The notes under the pieces are model-generated. The model had not been told where the DNA came from, searched no databases, and saw only the letters and a list, made by a program, of their open reading frames with translations. Shown here one piece after another: positions 3,588 through 56,764 of a DNA stretch of 64,000 nucleotides. Position 1 is the first letter of the stretch; each line of letters begins with the position of its first letter. Source of the DNA: a virus; the IMG/VR virus record IMGVR_UViG_3300020439_000005, positions 1-64,000 of that record. One strand, given 5' to 3'. Position numbers and translations under genes: made by a program.

Positions 3588-4415
3588 GTGTAAGCATTGA
3601 TAGATTTTCTCTGCCGTCTTTTTCCCAATGCCTTCTATCTCCATCAAGTCGTCGACTGACGCAGTACAGAGGTCTGCGATACTCGGGTAGACTGCTATTA
3701 TCTTTCTACGGGTTTTCGTACCTATCTTAGGTAAAGACTCCACGATTGCATTTCTGAAATCTGTTGCTTTGGCACCTTTCGGTCTAGGAACGTAAACTCT
3801 AGGGTCATCGTCCTCGACCTTCTCAACTATCCGACTAATTAACTCGGCGGCATCATGCTTGTCGGGGATGAATAGGGGAGGGTAGCCCACGGCGCATAGA
3901 GATGCGATATATCCTAGAAGGACTCGCTCGTTTACGTCTCGCATCATCATGTCGGCTTTGATTTCATTATACGACTTCGTGACTAGAAGATAGGAAAACT
4001 CGGCTTCTTCTCTCATCGACCCTAATTGTCTCAATCTTCGGTCATCAAACAAACTCGGAAGAAAGTCATCTTCCTTTCTTTCGACGGAGACCCGTCGAGT
4101 CGAGATGTCTCCCTTCCCTGTTTCGAGATGGACGATTTCAAAACCGAGATTGTTGAGATACTCGGCGATAACCCAATGCTCCCTGTGGTCAACCTTCTGT
4201 TGTCGGTCAAGGAGTTCCTGTATGATAGCCCTACCGAGCCACTCGCACCGTTCTTCGTGTCCGGTGGGTATTTCGCCCACTTCGATGTTTGCTCCGCTTA
4301 GGAGACGCAACAGAGCCAATTTTCGGCCAAGCCCGCCTGTGCTAGCGGCTTCAACAAAAGCCTCGGGGTTCTCTAGTATCTCTTTAGCCTTGAATGTCTT
4401 ATTGGCGGGTACCAT
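3579..4415 (-). CDS. ERCC4/XPF-family nuclease with C-terminal HhH domain
   Basis: This is a predicted structure-specific endonuclease for forks, flaps or crossovers. The ERCC4 nuclease signature GDxnERKxxxD is visible at residues 102-117 (GDISTRRVSVERKEDD). Two helix-hairpin-helix elements follow near residues 225-275 (LPKIGTKTRRKI and IEGIGKKTAEKI). It has the nuclease-HhH part of XPF/Hef without a helicase domain. It is the last gene of the clamp, small protein, primase, nuclease operon. Its start overlaps the primase end by 17 bp and has a good Shine-Dalgarno (GGAGG, 7 nt). In archaea XPF-type nucleases work with PCNA, which is encoded three genes upstream. Confidence 0.85.
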   Translation of the reverse strand: MVPANKTFKAKEILENPEAFVEAASTGGLGRKLALLRLLSGANIEVGEIPTGHEERCEWLGRAIIQELLDRQQKVDHREHWVIAEYLNNLGFEIVHLETGKGDISTRRVSVERKEDDFLPSLFDDRRLRQLGSMREEAEFSYLLVTKSYNEIKADMMMRDVNERVLLGYIASLCAVGYPPLFIPDKHDAAELISRIVEKVEDDDPRVYVPRPKGAKATDFRNAIVESLPKIGTKTRRKIIAVYPSIADLCTASVDDLMEIEGIGKKTAEKIYQCLHVK

Positions 4416-13868: not shown

Positions 13869-14239
13869 TTCTCATCCTCCTCGGTGAAGTTCTCGTAGAA
13901 CCATTTGTCTAGTTCACTACGGGTGCGCTTACTTACCGAAGAATAATCTCGGGTATGCTCAGTTCTTTTGGAATACCAATCATCATGATTTTGCTTCAAC
14001 TGTTCGTAGTATCTATCATGGAACAGAATCCACTTAGTCATCAGAGAATCATGAACGAATCCTAGTTTTTGATATTGATTATTTACCCTATTCCAAAGAC
14101 TTTCAGCGTTTTTGTAAACAGGTTCCCCCTCGGGATGCAATACAAAACACATGACGGCTTTTGCTGATTTCAACTCCTTCTCAAAGTTAGGATGCCGCAA
14201 CTCGAATCGTGTTCGTTTTGCTATCATGGCCCTACTCAT
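13865..14239 (-). CDS. Hypothetical basic protein, 124 aa
   Basis: The start is set at ATG 14239: it has a perfect Shine-Dalgarno (GGAGG, 8 nt) and an ATGA overlap with the helicase stop. The protein is basic, helical and rich in Trp and Tyr (WILFHDRYYEQLKQNHDDWY), ending in an acidic tail. No motif is recognised. It lies between the XPD-like helicase and the zinc protein. Confidence 0.65.
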   Translation of the reverse strand: MSRAMIAKRTRFELRHPNFEKELKSAKAVMCFVLHPEGEPVYKNAESLWNRVNNQYQKLGFVHDSLMTKWILFHDRYYEQLKQNHDDWYSKRTEHTRDYSSVSKRTRSELDKWFYENFTEEDEK

Positions 14240-15975
14240 GCTACGTGCCTCCTTAACCAACTAGGCATTTCCTTGATGTTCTGTCGGAACCACGAAGGAA
14301 GAAGCCCTGCATTCATTCGTTGAAATCTAGCCCACGATGAATCGAGAATGAAGATGTGTCCTTTGTCTGTTGGTGAACGAACGATACGACCTGCACCTTG
14401 TACAATAGTCAAGGCGGTTTGGAGATTGTACCACTTCTTACAGGGAGCGGGACAACCGAACGAGCCACACATGCCGTTGCTATACTTACTCGGGGGTTCG
14501 TACGGACAGTCGGGTCCTCCTTCGTGTTTGGCCCTCCACGCATGCTCGTCCTCCATTAGTCGTGTCGAGATAACAGGGTCGACCACGGGTAGGTATGGCA
14601 CTTTACAGAGAACCAACCACTCGGCTAGTTTGCCTTTGAAGTCGAATCCCTCGTTAACGTATGTTGAGATGAGGACTAGGTCGTCACGCTCGCTAGTCAT
14701 GAAATAATCGAGAGCGGCGTCGCGTCCCCCTGCATCCGAGTCATGCGTCACTATTCTATCCTCAAAGCCCGCCGCCTTGAGTCCTTCGACTAATGCCTTG
14801 CGTATGTAATGAGAATGTGGGAGTACGACTCCACGCTTGTTTGGAAATCTCTCCATGATTCCCTTAATGGCTTTGACTTGTTTTGGTATGGTCGTGTCTC
14901 TTTTGGAATACGACATAGAACCAACGGGGCAATAGTGAATGTTGAAGCAGTCTTTCGGGAATGGACTTTCAGTCACGTTGATGTACAGAGTCTTTTGATT
15001 CTCTAGTCCCATCGACTGTACGAACGTATCGACATCGAGTATAGTAGCCGAGAGGAAGATTCTCTTTCGGGCCACTCGCTCCAACATTTCTTCTGCATAG
15101 TCCTTCACACGAACGGGGTTGAACTCAACATACCTACCCGCTCTATTCGAGTCGAGTTTGACGACTAGATTTTTGGCGTTTTGAAGCAGAGTGAGAACCA
15201 TGCTTCCTTTCTCTAGTAAACTACGGAATGCCTTAATGTTGGAGTCATTCTCCTCGTCTTCGGCAAGTTTGAGATGTGCTTCGGCTGAGTTAACGAAGTC
15301 CTTGATGTCGTCCAACCAATCTGCGGCATGGTAGTGCATAGGGAAGTTCCACTTTGGACCATGGACCTTAGCCCAATCCCTCTGAGTTATTCTAGTTCCG
15401 AGAAGGTCGAGGAGAAATTGCTCCATCCTATGAGCCTCGTCGATGATTGCGAAGTCCCTTTGCTCAAACCGTGGGTCTCCCTGTATGACTCTAAAGAGAT
15501 AAGCCGGATTGGATAGCGTCACCCGTGAGTCGGCGGCGGCGAACTTCTGCTCGTAGTACGGACAGGGGTCGGCCTCCTTTGAGTGAGGACAGGAGCCGCC
15601 TCGCTTCGTCCAACAGGGGGCACCGTCGGCGGTCCCGCTCTTTATCCAACAGGGGAAGTTGGAGCGACCTCTTACCTCCTTTACCACGTGCCCGTAGTCA
15701 GCCATATACTGAGAAGCGAGACCGAGGCTTGGAGTTAGAAGGTAGGCGGATTGGAACTGTGCTTGAACGGTCATGGCTATGGCTGATTTCCCTATTCCGG
15801 TAGGTGCCTGTATCACGATGTTATCGAAGTCATCCCGCTCTAAGGCATGATAGATGACGGATAGTGTCTCCGACTGATATTTTCTAGGAGAGGGCATTGG
15901 GAAGTCTTCTCGTATCTCATCCCACTTATCCGGCAGTTTAGCCTTGGTTGGAATGTTGATGCGGACGACGGCCAT
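14236..15975 (-). CDS. XPD/DinG-like SF2 DNA helicase with Fe-S cluster
   Basis: Walker A APTGIGKSA lies near residue 58 and the DEAH box (IIDEAHRME) near 180. Between them are four spaced cysteines (FPCWI, APCW, GSCPH, PCPYY), the Fe-S domain of the XPD/Rad3/DinG group. C-terminal motifs include TYVNEGFDF and QGAGRIVRS (motif VI). It probably unwinds 5' to 3'. ATG 15975 is preferred to a GTG 21 bp upstream because a class II promoter lies 22 nt before it. It heads a three-gene unit. Confidence 0.9.
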   Translation of the reverse strand: MAVVRINIPTKAKLPDKWDEIREDFPMPSPRKYQSETLSVIYHALERDDFDNIVIQAPTGIGKSAIAMTVQAQFQSAYLLTPSLGLASQYMADYGHVVKEVRGRSNFPCWIKSGTADGAPCWTKRGGSCPHSKEADPCPYYEQKFAAADSRVTLSNPAYLFRVIQGDPRFEQRDFAIIDEAHRMEQFLLDLLGTRITQRDWAKVHGPKWNFPMHYHAADWLDDIKDFVNSAEAHLKLAEDEENDSNIKAFRSLLEKGSMVLTLLQNAKNLVVKLDSNRAGRYVEFNPVRVKDYAEEMLERVARKRIFLSATILDVDTFVQSMGLENQKTLYINVTESPFPKDCFNIHYCPVGSMSYSKRDTTIPKQVKAIKGIMERFPNKRGVVLPHSHYIRKALVEGLKAAGFEDRIVTHDSDAGGRDAALDYFMTSERDDLVLISTYVNEGFDFKGKLAEWLVLCKVPYLPVVDPVISTRLMEDEHAWRAKHEGGPDCPYEPPSKYSNGMCGSFGCPAPCKKWYNLQTALTIVQGAGRIVRSPTDKGHIFILDSSWARFQRMNAGLLPSWFRQNIKEMPSWLRRHVA

Positions 15976-15990
15976 GATACTCAGTCGTGT

Positions 15991-16006
15991 CCTCACCTTC
16001 TTAATG
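15991..16006 (-). promoter_or_regulatory. Class II promoter (CATTAAGAAGGTGAGG)
   Basis: CATTAAGAA plus GGTGAGG lies 22 nt before ATG 15975 of the XPD-like helicase. It directly follows pseudoknot element A. Confidence 0.6.
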
Positions 16007-16014
16007 TGGTGCGT

Positions 16015-16132
16015 CAGAGGAGGGGCCTATGAACGGGAAAAGATGTTAACAAAACCCACCGAGACAAACCCCTCCTCCGACGACTTGTTGAAGGTAATAA
16101 TGCCTCGGCAAATTGACCTATCACTCTCACCT
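16015..16132 (-). ncRNA. Predicted pseudoknot element A
   Basis: Read on the minus strand, the element starts with AGGTGAGAGT (16132-16123). Strand P1a GCCGAG (16109-16104) comes next, then a linker ending CAAGTCGTC. P2a GAGGAGGGG (16077-16069), P1b CTCGGT (16063-16058) inside the P2 loop, and P2b CCCCTCCTC (16025-16017) follow. The a-b-a'-b' order makes a pseudoknot with stems of 6 and 9 bp. Copy B next to it has the same fold with changed base pairs. It lies between two genes, downstream of a class I unit and just before a class II promoter. Role unknown. Confidence 0.5.
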
Positions 16133-16167
16133 ATCTAAAGGGAGCGGTATGATTTCGAGTGTTGCGC

Positions 16168-16280
16168 CGGAGGATGGGCGATATGTCGGGCAAATACACG
16201 AAACCCCACCAACGGGCACCCATCCTCCGACGACTTGCGAAGGTAAACCCCGTTGGCGAGTCGTCCTCTGACTCCCACCT
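16168..16280 (-). ncRNA. Predicted pseudoknot element B
   Basis: The same design as element A, 5' to 3' on the minus strand: AGGTGGGAGT, P1a GCCAACGGG (16257-16249), linker with TTACCTTC and CAAGTCGTC, P2a CGGAGGATGGG (16229-16219), P1b CCCGTTGGT (16216-16208) and P2b CCCATCCTCCG (16178-16168). The stems are 9 and 11 bp. The terminal P1 pair is G-U in both copies, which would be a C-A mismatch on the plus strand and so favours minus-strand RNA. Identical linker blocks in A and B suggest a bound ligand or protein. Confidence 0.5.
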
Positions 16281-16288
16281 ATTTTACT

Positions 16289-16672
16289 TCAACGGTTAGC
16301 CCAATAGGTACGACAGTCGTACTGAGCGGTCAGACCGACTTCGGTGGCCGCTCTTTCTAGTTCGCTGAGAAGGTCAATACAACCACATTCACATGAATGG
16401 CTACCGAGACTCGTCACGTGAGGGACTTCGATTTTAGCGATATAGAATGTGTCCGGCCAAGATTGGCGAGTGTTATTTCTCCATACAGTCTGCTTCTCAA
16501 TTAGTCCTCTGTCGATTCCCTTAGCGACCATTGGTCTAACTGTTTGGTTGTTGATGCGACACCATGAGTACGTAGCGTTGTCCGGTACGTACGTCCATGG
16601 TAGTTCGATTTGCTCCGTGGTAGGTAAAGATTGGATTTCCTCTATGATTTCTGCGATTGGTCTTGTTGCCAT
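16289..16672 (-). CDS. Hypothetical Cys-containing protein, 127 aa
   Basis: Behind a class I promoter with 21 nt from TATA box to ATG, so leaderless and probably monocistronic. The protein has a CECGC cluster with a flanking SHS segment (residues about 92-100) and a Trp-rich first half, possibly binding a metal. The family is not recognised. It lies between the replication block and the baseplate gene, and the pseudoknot pair follows its stop codon. Confidence 0.65.
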   Translation of the reverse strand: MATRPIAEIIEEIQSLPTTEQIELPWTYVPDNATYSWCRINNQTVRPMVAKGIDRGLIEKQTVWRNNTRQSWPDTFYIAKIEVPHVTSLGSHSCECGCIDLLSELERAATEVGLTAQYDCRTYWANR

Positions 16673-52695: not shown

Positions 52696-54470
52696 GATTT
52701 AACCTCCTTAATTTGGATTTCTCCTTCGGCACAGTGAGGACACGGGCATACCTCTTGAGACCAACCTCTAGGCATGGTCAAGATAACTCGACCGTTGCAT
52801 GTCGTACACCGAGATTCACGGTGGTTGAAGCCTAGGGGAGGGGCACCGCCTAGGTTGACGGTGATAGGTGGCCTAGCGTCCTTCCATGAAGCGACGAATG
52901 TTGATTTGTGGGTCGGTCGTGGAACCGCCGACCCGTCTGTACCTGCTCGGGCCATTTCACTCCACATAGGAGCGGACGTTTTGGCTTGATAAAGCACTCG
53001 GAGCGGAGCGTGGTATTTCACTTCGGAAGGAAGCGAGTTCGTAGTCGAGTCCCATAAAGCCAACAACCCGTCTGTTTTGTATTTTCTACCCACTCGGTCC
53101 ATGCTACGGGTTGGAATAACTGCGTCTGCTACGGTTAGTTTACTTAGGACGGTGTGTTGTTTTAACTCAACAACCAAACCAACACAAATGCCGTATTTGA
53201 GTCTCGTAGCGAGAGTAAAGTCTTGAGCATTTTTACTACTGATTGGCACCGGCAAACGCCCGCTTCTAATTTCATGCTCTAAGGTGTTCATAGAACCTTT
53301 GTCGTCCGATTGCCACTTCACAATTTTAGGTTGGACTGCTCGCTCCCCATAATGCGGTCCTCTTTTGATTGTCTTCGGCAATTGTTCTATTGGAGATTCG
53401 ATAAGTTCGATTCTCTCGAATGGTAGTTGCTTTCGGAACATTTCTTTGAAATTATGCGTCCCCTTACCTAATGGCATTTCCACGTCAGCCTCCTTCCATA
53501 TTCGATTGAGACTCCTCATTTGGAAGAAGCCCAATTTCCGATGTATGAATAGCACCATTTCCCTACTGACTATTAGTGGGATTATGTCTGCATTACCGAA
53601 TACAGTACGACAGTCGTGGTACAACGGAATGTTGTCGTCGTCGTTCACATAGTAGTCTATGGTGGTGAAATATGGAGTGTATAGGTCATTGGATAATTTC
53701 TCCTTGACTGCGTCAGTAGCGAAGTATGTCGTCATAAGGTCGTAGGGTCTACCCTCGCCTGTGACTAATGGGACGACACTCCAAGGTCTGATTTCATGTC
53801 TGTTGATTACTCCGCATTTTTCGTGCTTGTATGGTCTGACGGGGTGTTGTGCGAAGTACCCGCTTAGGTACCCATTGGGTGTTCTGTCGGCTCCCGCTTG
53901 ATTCGACGCCATGGATTGAAAGAAATTGAAAACGTCGTTTGCCGGTACGAGTTGTCTCATTGTCTTAGCCATGACGTTCCCTAATTTGTCTCCCCACCAC
54001 CTGTGGCCCTTTCTAGCCGACTCATAGAGGCTGTATAGAGCCGTCTGAGCCTTCGCTAGGTCTTCGACCCTCGCTATTGGTTCTTCGTCGCTTGAGACGG
54101 CTCTAATGGCCCTTCTTGAGTCTGATAGGTTTCCGGTCGGATGGTACCGCCCGATTGGTTCGTTTGATACTTCTTTCATGTACAACCTACCGATTTCGGC
54201 TACGCCCTCTGCAAACTTCTGTTCGTTGGGGTCTAGTTCACTAGAAGATGAGTGAGGATGGCATAATTGATAGAAAGCGGCGGCGGCATTCGCCGATGAC
54301 TCGAATGCGTGAGCGGGCTTGAAGTCGCCGACCTTGAAGTCGCCGAGGATTTGGTCGAAGTATGGCATTTCCATGAGTTCGTGGACCTCTGCCATTTCGA
54401 CGAATAAGTTGTTCAACATTGATGCCGCCGTGTTTTCGCCCATTGTGCTTCTCTTTGGTGCCGCCTTCAT
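52692..54470 (-). CDS. Unknown protein with C-terminal zinc ribbon, 592 aa
   Basis: A long protein of unrecognised family in the same operon as the VWA protein (4-bp overlap). The first 200 residues are helical. The end carries RCTTCNGRVIL and VCPCPHCAEGEI, a zinc ribbon. No signal peptide or membrane segment is seen. Given the genetic coupling, I infer that it works with the VWA-MoxR pair as the effector or substrate adaptor. Confidence 0.65.
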   Translation of the reverse strand: MKAAPKRSTMGENTAASMLNNLFVEMAEVHELMEMPYFDQILGDFKVGDFKPAHAFESSANAAAAFYQLCHPHSSSSELDPNEQKFAEGVAEIGRLYMKEVSNEPIGRYHPTGNLSDSRRAIRAVSSDEEPIARVEDLAKAQTALYSLYESARKGHRWWGDKLGNVMAKTMRQLVPANDVFNFFQSMASNQAGADRTPNGYLSGYFAQHPVRPYKHEKCGVINRHEIRPWSVVPLVTGEGRPYDLMTTYFATDAVKEKLSNDLYTPYFTTIDYYVNDDDNIPLYHDCRTVFGNADIIPLIVSREMVLFIHRKLGFFQMRSLNRIWKEADVEMPLGKGTHNFKEMFRKQLPFERIELIESPIEQLPKTIKRGPHYGERAVQPKIVKWQSDDKGSMNTLEHEIRSGRLPVPISSKNAQDFTLATRLKYGICVGLVVELKQHTVLSKLTVADAVIPTRSMDRVGRKYKTDGLLALWDSTTNSLPSEVKYHAPLRVLYQAKTSAPMWSEMARAGTDGSAVPRPTHKSTFVASWKDARPPITVNLGGAPPLGFNHRESRCTTCNGRVILTMPRGWSQEVCPCPHCAEGEIQIKEVKS

Positions 54471-56764
54471 TGTACCACCCTGTTAGTTCTAACTCGGTCT
54501 AGCATGTCCTCGATGAGGAACAGACCTTTGTCGACGATTTGGTCGATGCCCGAGATTGATAGAGAATGTTCGTAGTACCTGTCGACCGGAGAACCGCAAA
54601 CGCCGAGAGCGAATACTTCGACTCCCCTTGGTGGGTTGGCGGCTACGTTCTTCAAGTCTTGACTGACTGATACGTTGGTTGGTGCAGGTCCGGCAGGTGC
54701 CCCGTCTGAGATAGTGAAGACCATGTTAGCCGCTACTTCTTTCGGCATTTCGGCTAGCCTGTTGTAGCACCAATTCAACGCACGTCCGTCAGAGTTCTCT
54801 GAGCCTGTGGAAGGCAGAGCGATTGCCGCTTTGGTTCGGTCGCATAGTGGGTTCGAGTAAAGTTTGTTGACTGCAATTTGAGTACCGCCGACGGTGCCTA
54901 TGTCGTAGTGGGATGAGAAGTCAACCACTTCGACGTTGAAGCCGAGCCTGTGGAAAACTTCGTGGAATACGATTGAAGCGTTAGCGGCGTGGTGTGCCCT
55001 AGAGCCACCTGTGACTCCCTCAGAATGACCACCCATGGAACCGGATGCGTCGACTAGAAGAATGACGTTAGCCGATGGGTCGTCCTGTATGTTCCTCTTT
55101 CTGAATAGGTTGCGAGAAGTGCCGTAGCGGGATAGTCTGCGTGTGTCTAGTCTGCCTCTGCGTAGGTGGGTGTTCCAACGGGTGTCTAGCCCTAGAAGTC
55201 GGCGTGTGTAAAGGTCGACTAGAGTCTGTATTGTGTCCTCGTATTTCTCGACGGTTGCTTCGTAGTGTTCGGCGGCGGCTTCGATGTTGTCGACCCTGCC
55301 GTCTAGCCTGTACCCGCTTCGGGTTTGGCGTGTGTCGAAGAAGTCAACCACTTTCATGTAGTGGCCTGTGTCGTCCGGTCCGTTGGTGACTAGGTCGATA
55401 CCTGCGTATGCCTCGGTTGCTTCGTACTCGTAGTCGGCTTCGTCGTTAAGAGCCTCGTAGTCCTCAACCTCCATGCACTCGATTGCTTCTCTCATGATGG
55501 TCTCCATGTCGAACATTTCTCCATTGGAAGTTATGATTGTGTTTTGACCGATTCCACCGTACCCTGCTAGGCCGTCGTCGTCAGCCTCAGTATTACCTGC
55601 GTCACCGGAGATTTCTGTCTCGTCGTATTCGCCGATGGTGCCGTCTAGTTCTCCACCTGCTACACCTTCGCCGACTTCTCCGTCTGCGTCTGCGTCGCCT
55701 GTGGTACTACCCATACCGTCTTCACCCTCTCCTGTACCCTCTGCGTCGCTCTCAGAGCCGTCTTCGGCGTCACCTAGGCCCAAACTACCTGTTGACTCTC
55801 CTTCGCCCTCAGATTCGCTCTCTGAGAGTTTGGATGCTTCTTCGGCGTCTTCTTTGGTTGGTGTGGTTCTCTCGTCGAAGCGAGTTGGACTAACGTCCTC
55901 GGCTTCTTCGCCGGTTTCGGCTTGATTCTTTGCTGACTCTGTGATTTCTCCTTTTGTGTGTGAGTCCATGGAGTCCATTGAGAAGCCCTCCATGCCCTCC
56001 ATAGGCAAACCTGCCTCGGACATGTCTCGGTCCATTTCACCCAATGGGAAATGTCGGCGGATTACTTCGATAACTCGGCGAGCCTGTCTAATGACCTCCA
56101 TAGTGTTAGGTTGATTGATTGCGTTTTGGTAAAGTGGGCGAGCCTCGTCGATACATGCTACTACTCCTTCGTCGTCGAAGAAGTGAGGGGTGTTGTTGAT
56201 GGTCTCGCACATGATAGCGGTCATGACTGCGGATAGTCTGTTTGACTCGTCAATGTCCTGTGTAGCCCAACGTGCCCTGTGCATGTTGGTGTAGTGGTTG
56301 TTGGTGAATGAGACCCTTTTACCGGAACCGGGGAAGTCCTGTCCGAGAAGATGGTTAATTCGAGTGTCCTCTAGTATGTTGACCATGTGGTGAATTAGTG
56401 GGTCGTCTTTGCCGTTCGCAACAGTCCTTCGTAGTGAGTCCCATGAACCAAAGTCTGTGTAGCGAAGGTGCCCTGCCGCTTCGTGGGCTAGGATTGCTTC
56501 TTGAGCCAAAAGGTTCGCCGCTTCGTCTCCCTCGATTGCAGTCTGAGGAACCCACACGGTTTTGCCGTCTGTGCATGCTCGACCGGATGGGTCGAGTACA
56601 ACCTTAGTTGCTGATGCTCCACCCTGTCCGTACTCGCCGGATAGAACCCTAGCGACCTGTGCTAGTCTGCGTTGTCTCGCTCTAAAGCGGAAGGCGTCGT
56701 CTTTTGGCTTGTTGATTATTCCCGCCATGGGGTTGTCGAAGTTGGCGTCGGCTAGCATGTCCAT
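54467..56764 (-). CDS. VWA-domain protein, CobT-like
   Basis: 765 residues. The N-terminal part has AILAHEAAGHLRYTDF near residue 92, a HExxGH-type motif seen in VWA/CobT-like proteins. An acidic, low-complexity segment spans about 270-390. The C-terminal VWA domain has the MIDAS residues in ILLVDASGSMGGHSEG near 573. CobT-like proteins pair with MoxR/CobS ATPases, and one lies 1 kb upstream. It heads the VWA operon from a class I promoter. Confidence 0.85.
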   Translation of the reverse strand: MDMLADANFDNPMAGIINKPKDDAFRFRARQRRLAQVARVLSGEYGQGGASATKVVLDPSGRACTDGKTVWVPQTAIEGDEAANLLAQEAILAHEAAGHLRYTDFGSWDSLRRTVANGKDDPLIHHMVNILEDTRINHLLGQDFPGSGKRVSFTNNHYTNMHRARWATQDIDESNRLSAVMTAIMCETINNTPHFFDDEGVVACIDEARPLYQNAINQPNTMEVIRQARRVIEVIRRHFPLGEMDRDMSEAGLPMEGMEGFSMDSMDSHTKGEITESAKNQAETGEEAEDVSPTRFDERTTPTKEDAEEASKLSESESEGEGESTGSLGLGDAEDGSESDAEGTGEGEDGMGSTTGDADADGEVGEGVAGGELDGTIGEYDETEISGDAGNTEADDDGLAGYGGIGQNTIITSNGEMFDMETIMREAIECMEVEDYEALNDEADYEYEATEAYAGIDLVTNGPDDTGHYMKVVDFFDTRQTRSGYRLDGRVDNIEAAAEHYEATVEKYEDTIQTLVDLYTRRLLGLDTRWNTHLRRGRLDTRRLSRYGTSRNLFRKRNIQDDPSANVILLVDASGSMGGHSEGVTGGSRAHHAANASIVFHEVFHRLGFNVEVVDFSSHYDIGTVGGTQIAVNKLYSNPLCDRTKAAIALPSTGSENSDGRALNWCYNRLAEMPKEVAANMVFTISDGAPAGPAPTNVSVSQDLKNVAANPPRGVEVFALGVCGSPVDRYYEHSLSISGIDQIVDKGLFLIEDMLDRVRTNRVVQ

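Follow-up and report, generated by a model that had tools for sequence, protein, structure and literature searches.

In the 64,000-nt stretch of viral DNA analyzed here (the window; positions 1 to 64,000 of IMG/VR record IMGVR_UViG_3300020439_000005), the minus strand carries two tandem pseudoknots that belong to an RNA family new to Rfam 15; they are flanked by a small gene (16289-16672) and by the gene of a DNA helicase (14236-15975). Relatives of this element are present in about a dozen divergent virus lineages, in many relatives as a single copy, compared with two in the window. Judging from the comparison of these sequences, it is close to certain that the RNA structure of each copy is real. 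With respect to the function, we consider it somewhat probable that the element is a stand-alone viral small RNA that starts from its own promoter with a 5'-terminal pseudoknot, at the start of P1, and acts in trans.

Architecture of the tandem pseudoknots

The preliminary description had reported two tandem folds of the a-b-a'-b' type on the minus strand, at 16015-16280, and both are present there; as modeled, the RNAs span 16257-16161 and 16109-16008, slightly inside that interval apart from the final 7 nt of copy 2. Each copy forms an H-type pseudoknot with a 9-bp P1, a 14-bp P2 and a small P3, a short GGG/CCC hairpin between P1' and P2'. The elements follow in the order P1, J1 loop of 16-18 nt, P2 5' strand, 2 nt, P1', P3-containing loop, P2' and a terminal CAAC or CACC, and end-to-end stacking of P1 and P2 is possible in the modeled pseudoknot. 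The stems originally proposed were correct as far as they went, but P2 was drawn too short in both copies, P3 was missed and P1 of copy 2 was given only 6 bp instead of the same 9 bp as in copy 1. The features of the region, with the basis for each in parentheses, are as follows.

16273..16294, minus: promoter of copy 1, TATA-like AAGTAAAATA followed by GGTGGG (motif and 22-nt spacing, as at leaderless start codons)
16161..16257, minus: RNA copy 1, 97 nt as modeled (fold and spacing; 68.9 bits with covariance model R1, in the building of which both window copies were used; 0 of 1,000 shuffles)
16249..16257, minus: copy 1, P1 5' strand GCCAACGGG (9 bp with 16208-16216, terminal G-U; covarying column set)
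16233..16248, minus: copy 1, J1 loop containing UUUACCUUC and CAAGU (sequence)
16219..16232, minus: copy 1, P2 5' strand CGTCGGAGGATGGG (14 bp with 16165-16178)
16208..16216, minus: copy 1, P1 3' strand CCCGTTGGT (helix alignment)
16188..16207, minus: copy 1, P3 hairpin GGG...CCC with a U-rich loop (weaker support, 72% of cells paired)
16165..16178, minus: copy 1, P2 3' strand CCCATCCTCCGGCG, followed by CAAC at 16161-16164 (helix alignments)
16125..16146, minus: promoter of copy 2, TTTAGATA and GGTGAG (same motif and spacing)
16008..16109, minus: RNA copy 2, 102 nt as modeled (63.1 bits with model R1, built with both copies; 0 of 1,000 shuffles)
16101..16109, minus: copy 2, P1 5' strand GCCGAGGCA (9 bp with 16058-16066)
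16069..16082, minus: copy 2, P2 5' strand CGTCGGAGGAGGGG (14 bp with 16012-16025)
16058..16066, minus: copy 2, P1 3' strand TGTCTCGGT (helix alignment)
16035..16057, minus: copy 2, P3 hairpin GGG...CCC (weaker support)
16012..16025, minus: copy 2, P2 3' strand CCCCTCCTCTGACG, followed by CACC at 16008-16011 (helix alignments)
15991..16007, minus: helicase promoter, ACATTAAGAA and GGTGAGG, directly after copy 2 (22 nt before the ATG at 15975)
14236..15975, minus: downstream DNA helicase gene (Pfam DEAD / Helicase_C_2; putative leaderless start)

The terminal P1 pair, formed by the first nucleotide and a U, is G-U in both window copies, as originally described, but the relatives show G-U, A-U, G-C or A.C at this position. 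An ACCUC-like motif in J1 recurs in many, although not all, of the relatives, and the P3 loop of copy 1 is similar to UUUGUGUUAUUUC of the relatives. A role of the J1 motif (ACCUC/ACCUUC) as a mimic of the 16S rRNA anti-Shine-Dalgarno sequence or as a partner of the GGUG of the next promoter was considered but not adopted: the match is suggestive in some copies but is absent in L041, L047, L020 and L316.

Homologs in divergent viruses

Related virus contigs were fetched via the helicase, and the DNA upstream of the helicase gene was read regardless of pairing. A single copy with a different sequence and the same fold precedes the helicase gene in L028, L029, L006/L030, L009, L010, L040 and L024, and L019 has an extended version of the element. 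Tandem pseudoknots also occur in a second lineage: L021 carries two in a single transcript leader (3799-3990; the first, read by eye, at 3799-3875) that ends in AAAGGAGTTTCC-ATG of the helicase.

Other copies came from searches with the structure itself. The covariance-model search seeded from the copies, which had been suggested at the outset, was productive: a model of P2 and P3 trained on 12 copies recovered the unseen homologs in L040 (30.4 bits) and G009 (27.5 bits, E 5e-5), the latter located elsewhere in its record than upstream of the helicase. Further copies came to light in fold scans of whole records, in G026, G032 and, weakly by the model (18.4 bits), in G020; the same scans refound the L024 copy in G008; earlier fold scans had given L041/L047/L020 and L059, and the neighbor genes of two fold-scan copies led to L335-L340 and L341-L345. 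The pattern GGTGGGN{60,90}TTTGTGTTATTTC, when run against viruses, returned the known copies and one more contig of a known type (L256), and of its 29 matches in cellular genomes, none scored with the model. Two other patterns were discarded, namely, the exact pattern CAAGTCGTCGGAGG, with at least 119 matches too common to be informative, and the gapped pattern AAAGYCCTGTN{78,108}ATAGGCAA, in which the gap was set too long and all matches were chance-like.

In several loci (L033 upstream of the helicase, L039, L051 and L297:9945-10245), there is no pseudoknot before the helicase, and a conserved AGAAGCCCATAGAGCGCGTC or its reverse complement is found there; this stretch forms other hairpins and is possibly a different structured RNA or site. 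False pseudoknot scores were produced by GC-rich tandem repeats of the GGTCCTGTTGG type, at about 200-1550 on the plus strand of the window and at 15600-16200 of L295, which are probably collagen-like (Gly-X-Y) fiber genes.

Compensatory changes support the fold

Chance complementarity in GC-rich intergenic DNA could be invoked given that the two window copies are related by duplication and are not independent. However, none of the 1,000 dinucleotide-preserving shuffles of either copy reached the observed best a-b-a'-b' helix score (71 versus at most 52 for copy 1, and 63 versus at most 47 for copy 2). In an unanchored fold scan of 845 kb (both strands counted), copy 1 ranked first and copy 2 third; the hit between them is a homolog from another virus, and further homologs account for many of the next ranks.

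With the helices placed by hand, so that the counts lean towards structure, 98.1% of the helix cells contain standard pairs in the 18 distinct copies (some of these discovered by the fold search itself), all 18 scored pairs have changed on both sides, and the covariation amounts to 1.115, compared with 0.258±0.032 when the partners are shuffled and no more than 0.28 when they are slid; in the 9 copies selected by their place before the helicase alone, with helices also placed by hand and the same leaning, the respective values are 97.5% paired, 14 of the 18 pairs doubly changed and 0.927 versus 0.260±0.045. Homologs with compensatory changes, which the preliminary description had named as a check on the fold, are thus at hand, and the crossing helices that define an H-type pseudoknot are backed by such changes in both the 18-copy and the position-only sets. 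Because MAFFT misaligned the helices of full-length copies, the P2-P2' region and a composite of hand-registered helices were used instead. The MAFFT alignment of the P2 region, which does not rely on hand placement, yields a covariation of 0.759 versus 0.239±0.040; the support for P3 is lower in this alignment, with 72% of the cells paired. Chance complementarity, already refuted by the covariation, is accordingly left with a negligible probability.

The sense of the RNA follows from the G-U pairs, which are frequent in the modeled orientation only (about 40 over 324 cells, turning into A.C mismatches if read on the other strand), and fix the RNA to the minus strand, in agreement with the original proposal.

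Putative promoter and transcription start

Leaderless archaeal transcripts are characterized by a fixed distance between the promoter motif and the AUG. In 39 viruses, a T-A-rich and GGTGGG motif lies 21-23 nt (mostly 22) before the start codon of the helicase, and 13 elements, i.e. all the copies that could be measured, have the motif at the same distance ahead of the first P1 nucleotide. When aligned, the promoters of the RNA-element set and those of the start-codon set share a consensus shape, and in the window, the GGTG promoter motif is found 22-24 nt before other genes as well. Given that the spacing matches that of leaderless starts, the most economical reading places +1 at the opening nucleotide of P1, and transcription of both window copies would start there. 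Of the three constant single-stranded blocks in the preliminary description, AGGTGRGAGT has to be reassigned: it is not RNA but part of this promoter motif, which at other places in the window precedes start codons by 22 nt.

Three other features of the promoter landscape deserve mention. A second promoter class, CACAAAACnnnnnnnTTATATAG (with variations), is followed by an ATG about 22 nt later on the minus strand of the window (ATGs at 16672, 21024, 36106, 52206 and 56764) and likely represents a different temporal class of leaderless genes. In L320 (15279-15460), a GGTGGG promoter is followed by a 16-17 bp hairpin, GATTTGGAGGGTGCG/CGCATCCTCCAAATC, at the inferred start, a possible second structured RNA of record G020. 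In L059 (6240-6660, minus strand), the pseudoknot is followed by a series of promoter-like blocks CCCATATAAAGGTTTTGRTTGCCGATARTAT and by several hairpins, with no ORFs, which perhaps constitute a cluster of small RNA genes.

The virus

The full record (80,697 bp) encodes a B-family polymerase, terminase, portal, prohead protease, tape measure protein and a GroEL-type chaperonin, and the best-covering matches of the polymerase are to archaeal haloviruses (24% identity). Combined with the leaderless TATA promoters and the GGTG ribosome-binding sites, these matches make a tailed virus of archaea likely; the viruses that share the element are divergent head-tailed viruses that probably infect archaea. 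A placement among the viruses of Poseidoniales, in the order Magrovirales or Adrikavirales (PMC12999244, PMC13108676), is plausible, but no close match was found. The 127-aa gene upstream of the element had no relatives in IMG/VR by the search used, and a DNA search against annotated phages gave no match. Near the terminase gene, the window encodes a CobT-like VWA-domain protein (54467-56764, minus strand).

Comparison with known RNAs

For the window and 9 homologous loci, Rfam 15 gave nothing above the gathering threshold; a search at a low threshold gave only chance-level matches, consistent with the initial impression that no known family is involved. The literature search found no paper describing this RNA or a similar structured RNA of archaeal viruses.

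One of the known systems to be weighed is the HDV-like self-cleaving ribozyme, a nested pseudoknot in which the 5' nucleotide of P1, in a terminal G-U pair, is the cleavage site. The two share the crossing P1 and P2 in the strand order P1-P2-P1'-P2', with P1 at the 5' end, a terminal G-U (in several copies here), GGG right after P1' and a hairpin between P1' and P2'. However, the P3 helix of HDV between P2 and P1' is missing, with only 0-4 nt there in most copies; there is no conserved C before P2' that would provide the catalytic context; J1 is long and variable; P2 is 14 bp; and no HDV-like match was obtained with Rfam. Furthermore, with the 5' end already set by the promoter, cleavage at that site would be pointless. 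This reading was therefore rejected as very improbable.

Three other RNAs, as commonly described, resemble the element in single aspects. The PreQ1-II riboswitch is likewise an H-type pseudoknot with a hairpin inside loop 3, but has much shorter helices, resides in the 5' UTRs of bacterial queuosine genes and has no Rfam match here. The xrRNAs are compact virus-made pseudoknots that, as could be the case here, block nucleases, but they are internal to RNA virus genomes and halt a 5'-3' enzyme, whereas the present fold includes the 5' end. The phi29 pRNA is a viral RNA of about 120 nt with its own promoter, but it is an interlocking-loop RNA, required as a multimer for packaging and located at the genome end of Bacillus phages; here, there is no match to it and no fixed link to the terminase.

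The put RNAs (putL and putR) of phage HK022 are short structured viral RNAs at or near the start of early transcripts, in two copies per genome (PMC9378689). The location is comparable, in the early region downstream of a promoter (P1 lies 22±1 nt after the motif of the putative promoter), but the architecture is not: put consists of two stem-loops, comes from E. coli phages and binds the bacterial RNA polymerase, whereas the element described here is a pseudoknot from probable archaeal viruses, with no similarity to put in sequence or fold.

Genomic setting and function

The gene that follows the element varies among the viruses. It is the helicase gene in the window; in G009, G032 and their relatives, a 125-aa ORF takes this place; G026 and G020 have an HNH endonuclease-like gene there (identified by eye from the sequence), and L041 has a 69-aa ORF preceded by a ribosome-binding site. 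In L059, about 290 nt pass without any substantial ORF on the same strand. A link to one gene or pathway, such as that of a riboswitch or a gene-specific cis element, is not observed. With the exception of L059, the gene that follows shares the strand of the element, and in most copies, its own TATA-like promoter comes immediately after P2'. In L019 and L021, a ribosome-binding site precedes the helicase AUG and there is no separate promoter after the element, which makes transcription past the element into that gene likely, in these two at least; the small ORF in L041 similarly lacks a second promoter. In all three, the element thus behaves as a leader. No terminator-like U-tract was found after the RNA, and hence, transcripts may run on into the next gene.

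Adjacency to the replication helicase in this lineage could also suggest an element that functions as DNA (an origin, a packaging site or protein-binding inverted repeats), in which the a-b-a'-b' arrangement is coincidental. The many G-U pairs in one sense only, the exact alignment with the promoter start and the other positions in other viruses make such an element highly unlikely.

The main rival to a trans-acting RNA is a cis-acting 5' leader, a pseudoknot made first on a long transcript and acting on that same transcript by modifying the polymerase against pausing or termination (like HK022 put), by protecting the 5' end or by controlling translation of the next gene. Such a leader, which we consider a serious possibility at roughly one chance in three, would account for the position of the element where transcription from a virus promoter is predicted to begin, the same-strand downstream gene in nearly all cases with no terminator in between, and the arrangement in L019, L021 and L041; it also has a counterpart in HK022 putL, placed just downstream of the early promoter PL (PMC9378689). 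However, the downstream genes are unrelated, the leaderless promoter of the next gene right after P2' in most copies would render the leader largely redundant, and L059 has no nearby same-strand gene to be led. In addition, the archaeal polymerase terminates by a different mechanism, and we know of no put-like RNA in archaea.

A trans-acting small RNA is favored by the combination of its own promoter, the variable neighbors, the separate promoter of the next gene and the very stable 5'-terminal fold. Under the proposed mechanism, the first nucleotide of P1 would be the 5' end of an RNA made from a promoter (TATA-like box and GGTGGGG) whose class also serves replication genes, among them that of the helicase. 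The long stack of P1 and P2, with the 5' end buried, would make a stable, nuclease-resistant particle. This small non-coding RNA is predicted to work in trans, and a host or viral protein is its most likely binding partner, contacted via the few conserved unpaired stretches (the loop of P3, the strand that follows P3 and the CAAC/CACC tail). In this genome, the dose would be doubled by the tandem arrangement. The roles raised in the preliminary description, a decoy, a regulatory RNA or a packaging RNA, are all candidates. More tentatively, and with appreciably less confidence than in trans action as such, the element might represent a new class of RNAs of archaeal tailed viruses, with a 5' pseudoknot made early in infection that would capture or inhibit a factor of the host, such as a nuclease or a translation or defense protein, by a mechanism new among viruses.

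Implications

Hardly anything is known of structured non-coding RNAs in archaeal viruses. The unusually clear covariation, the predicted exact start and the simple promoter make transcript mapping, structure probing and partner pull-down direct tests of the proposed RNA. Annotation of other viruses of this group, and a search for the RNA in marine metatranscriptomes, can draw at once on the covariance model and the promoter rule.
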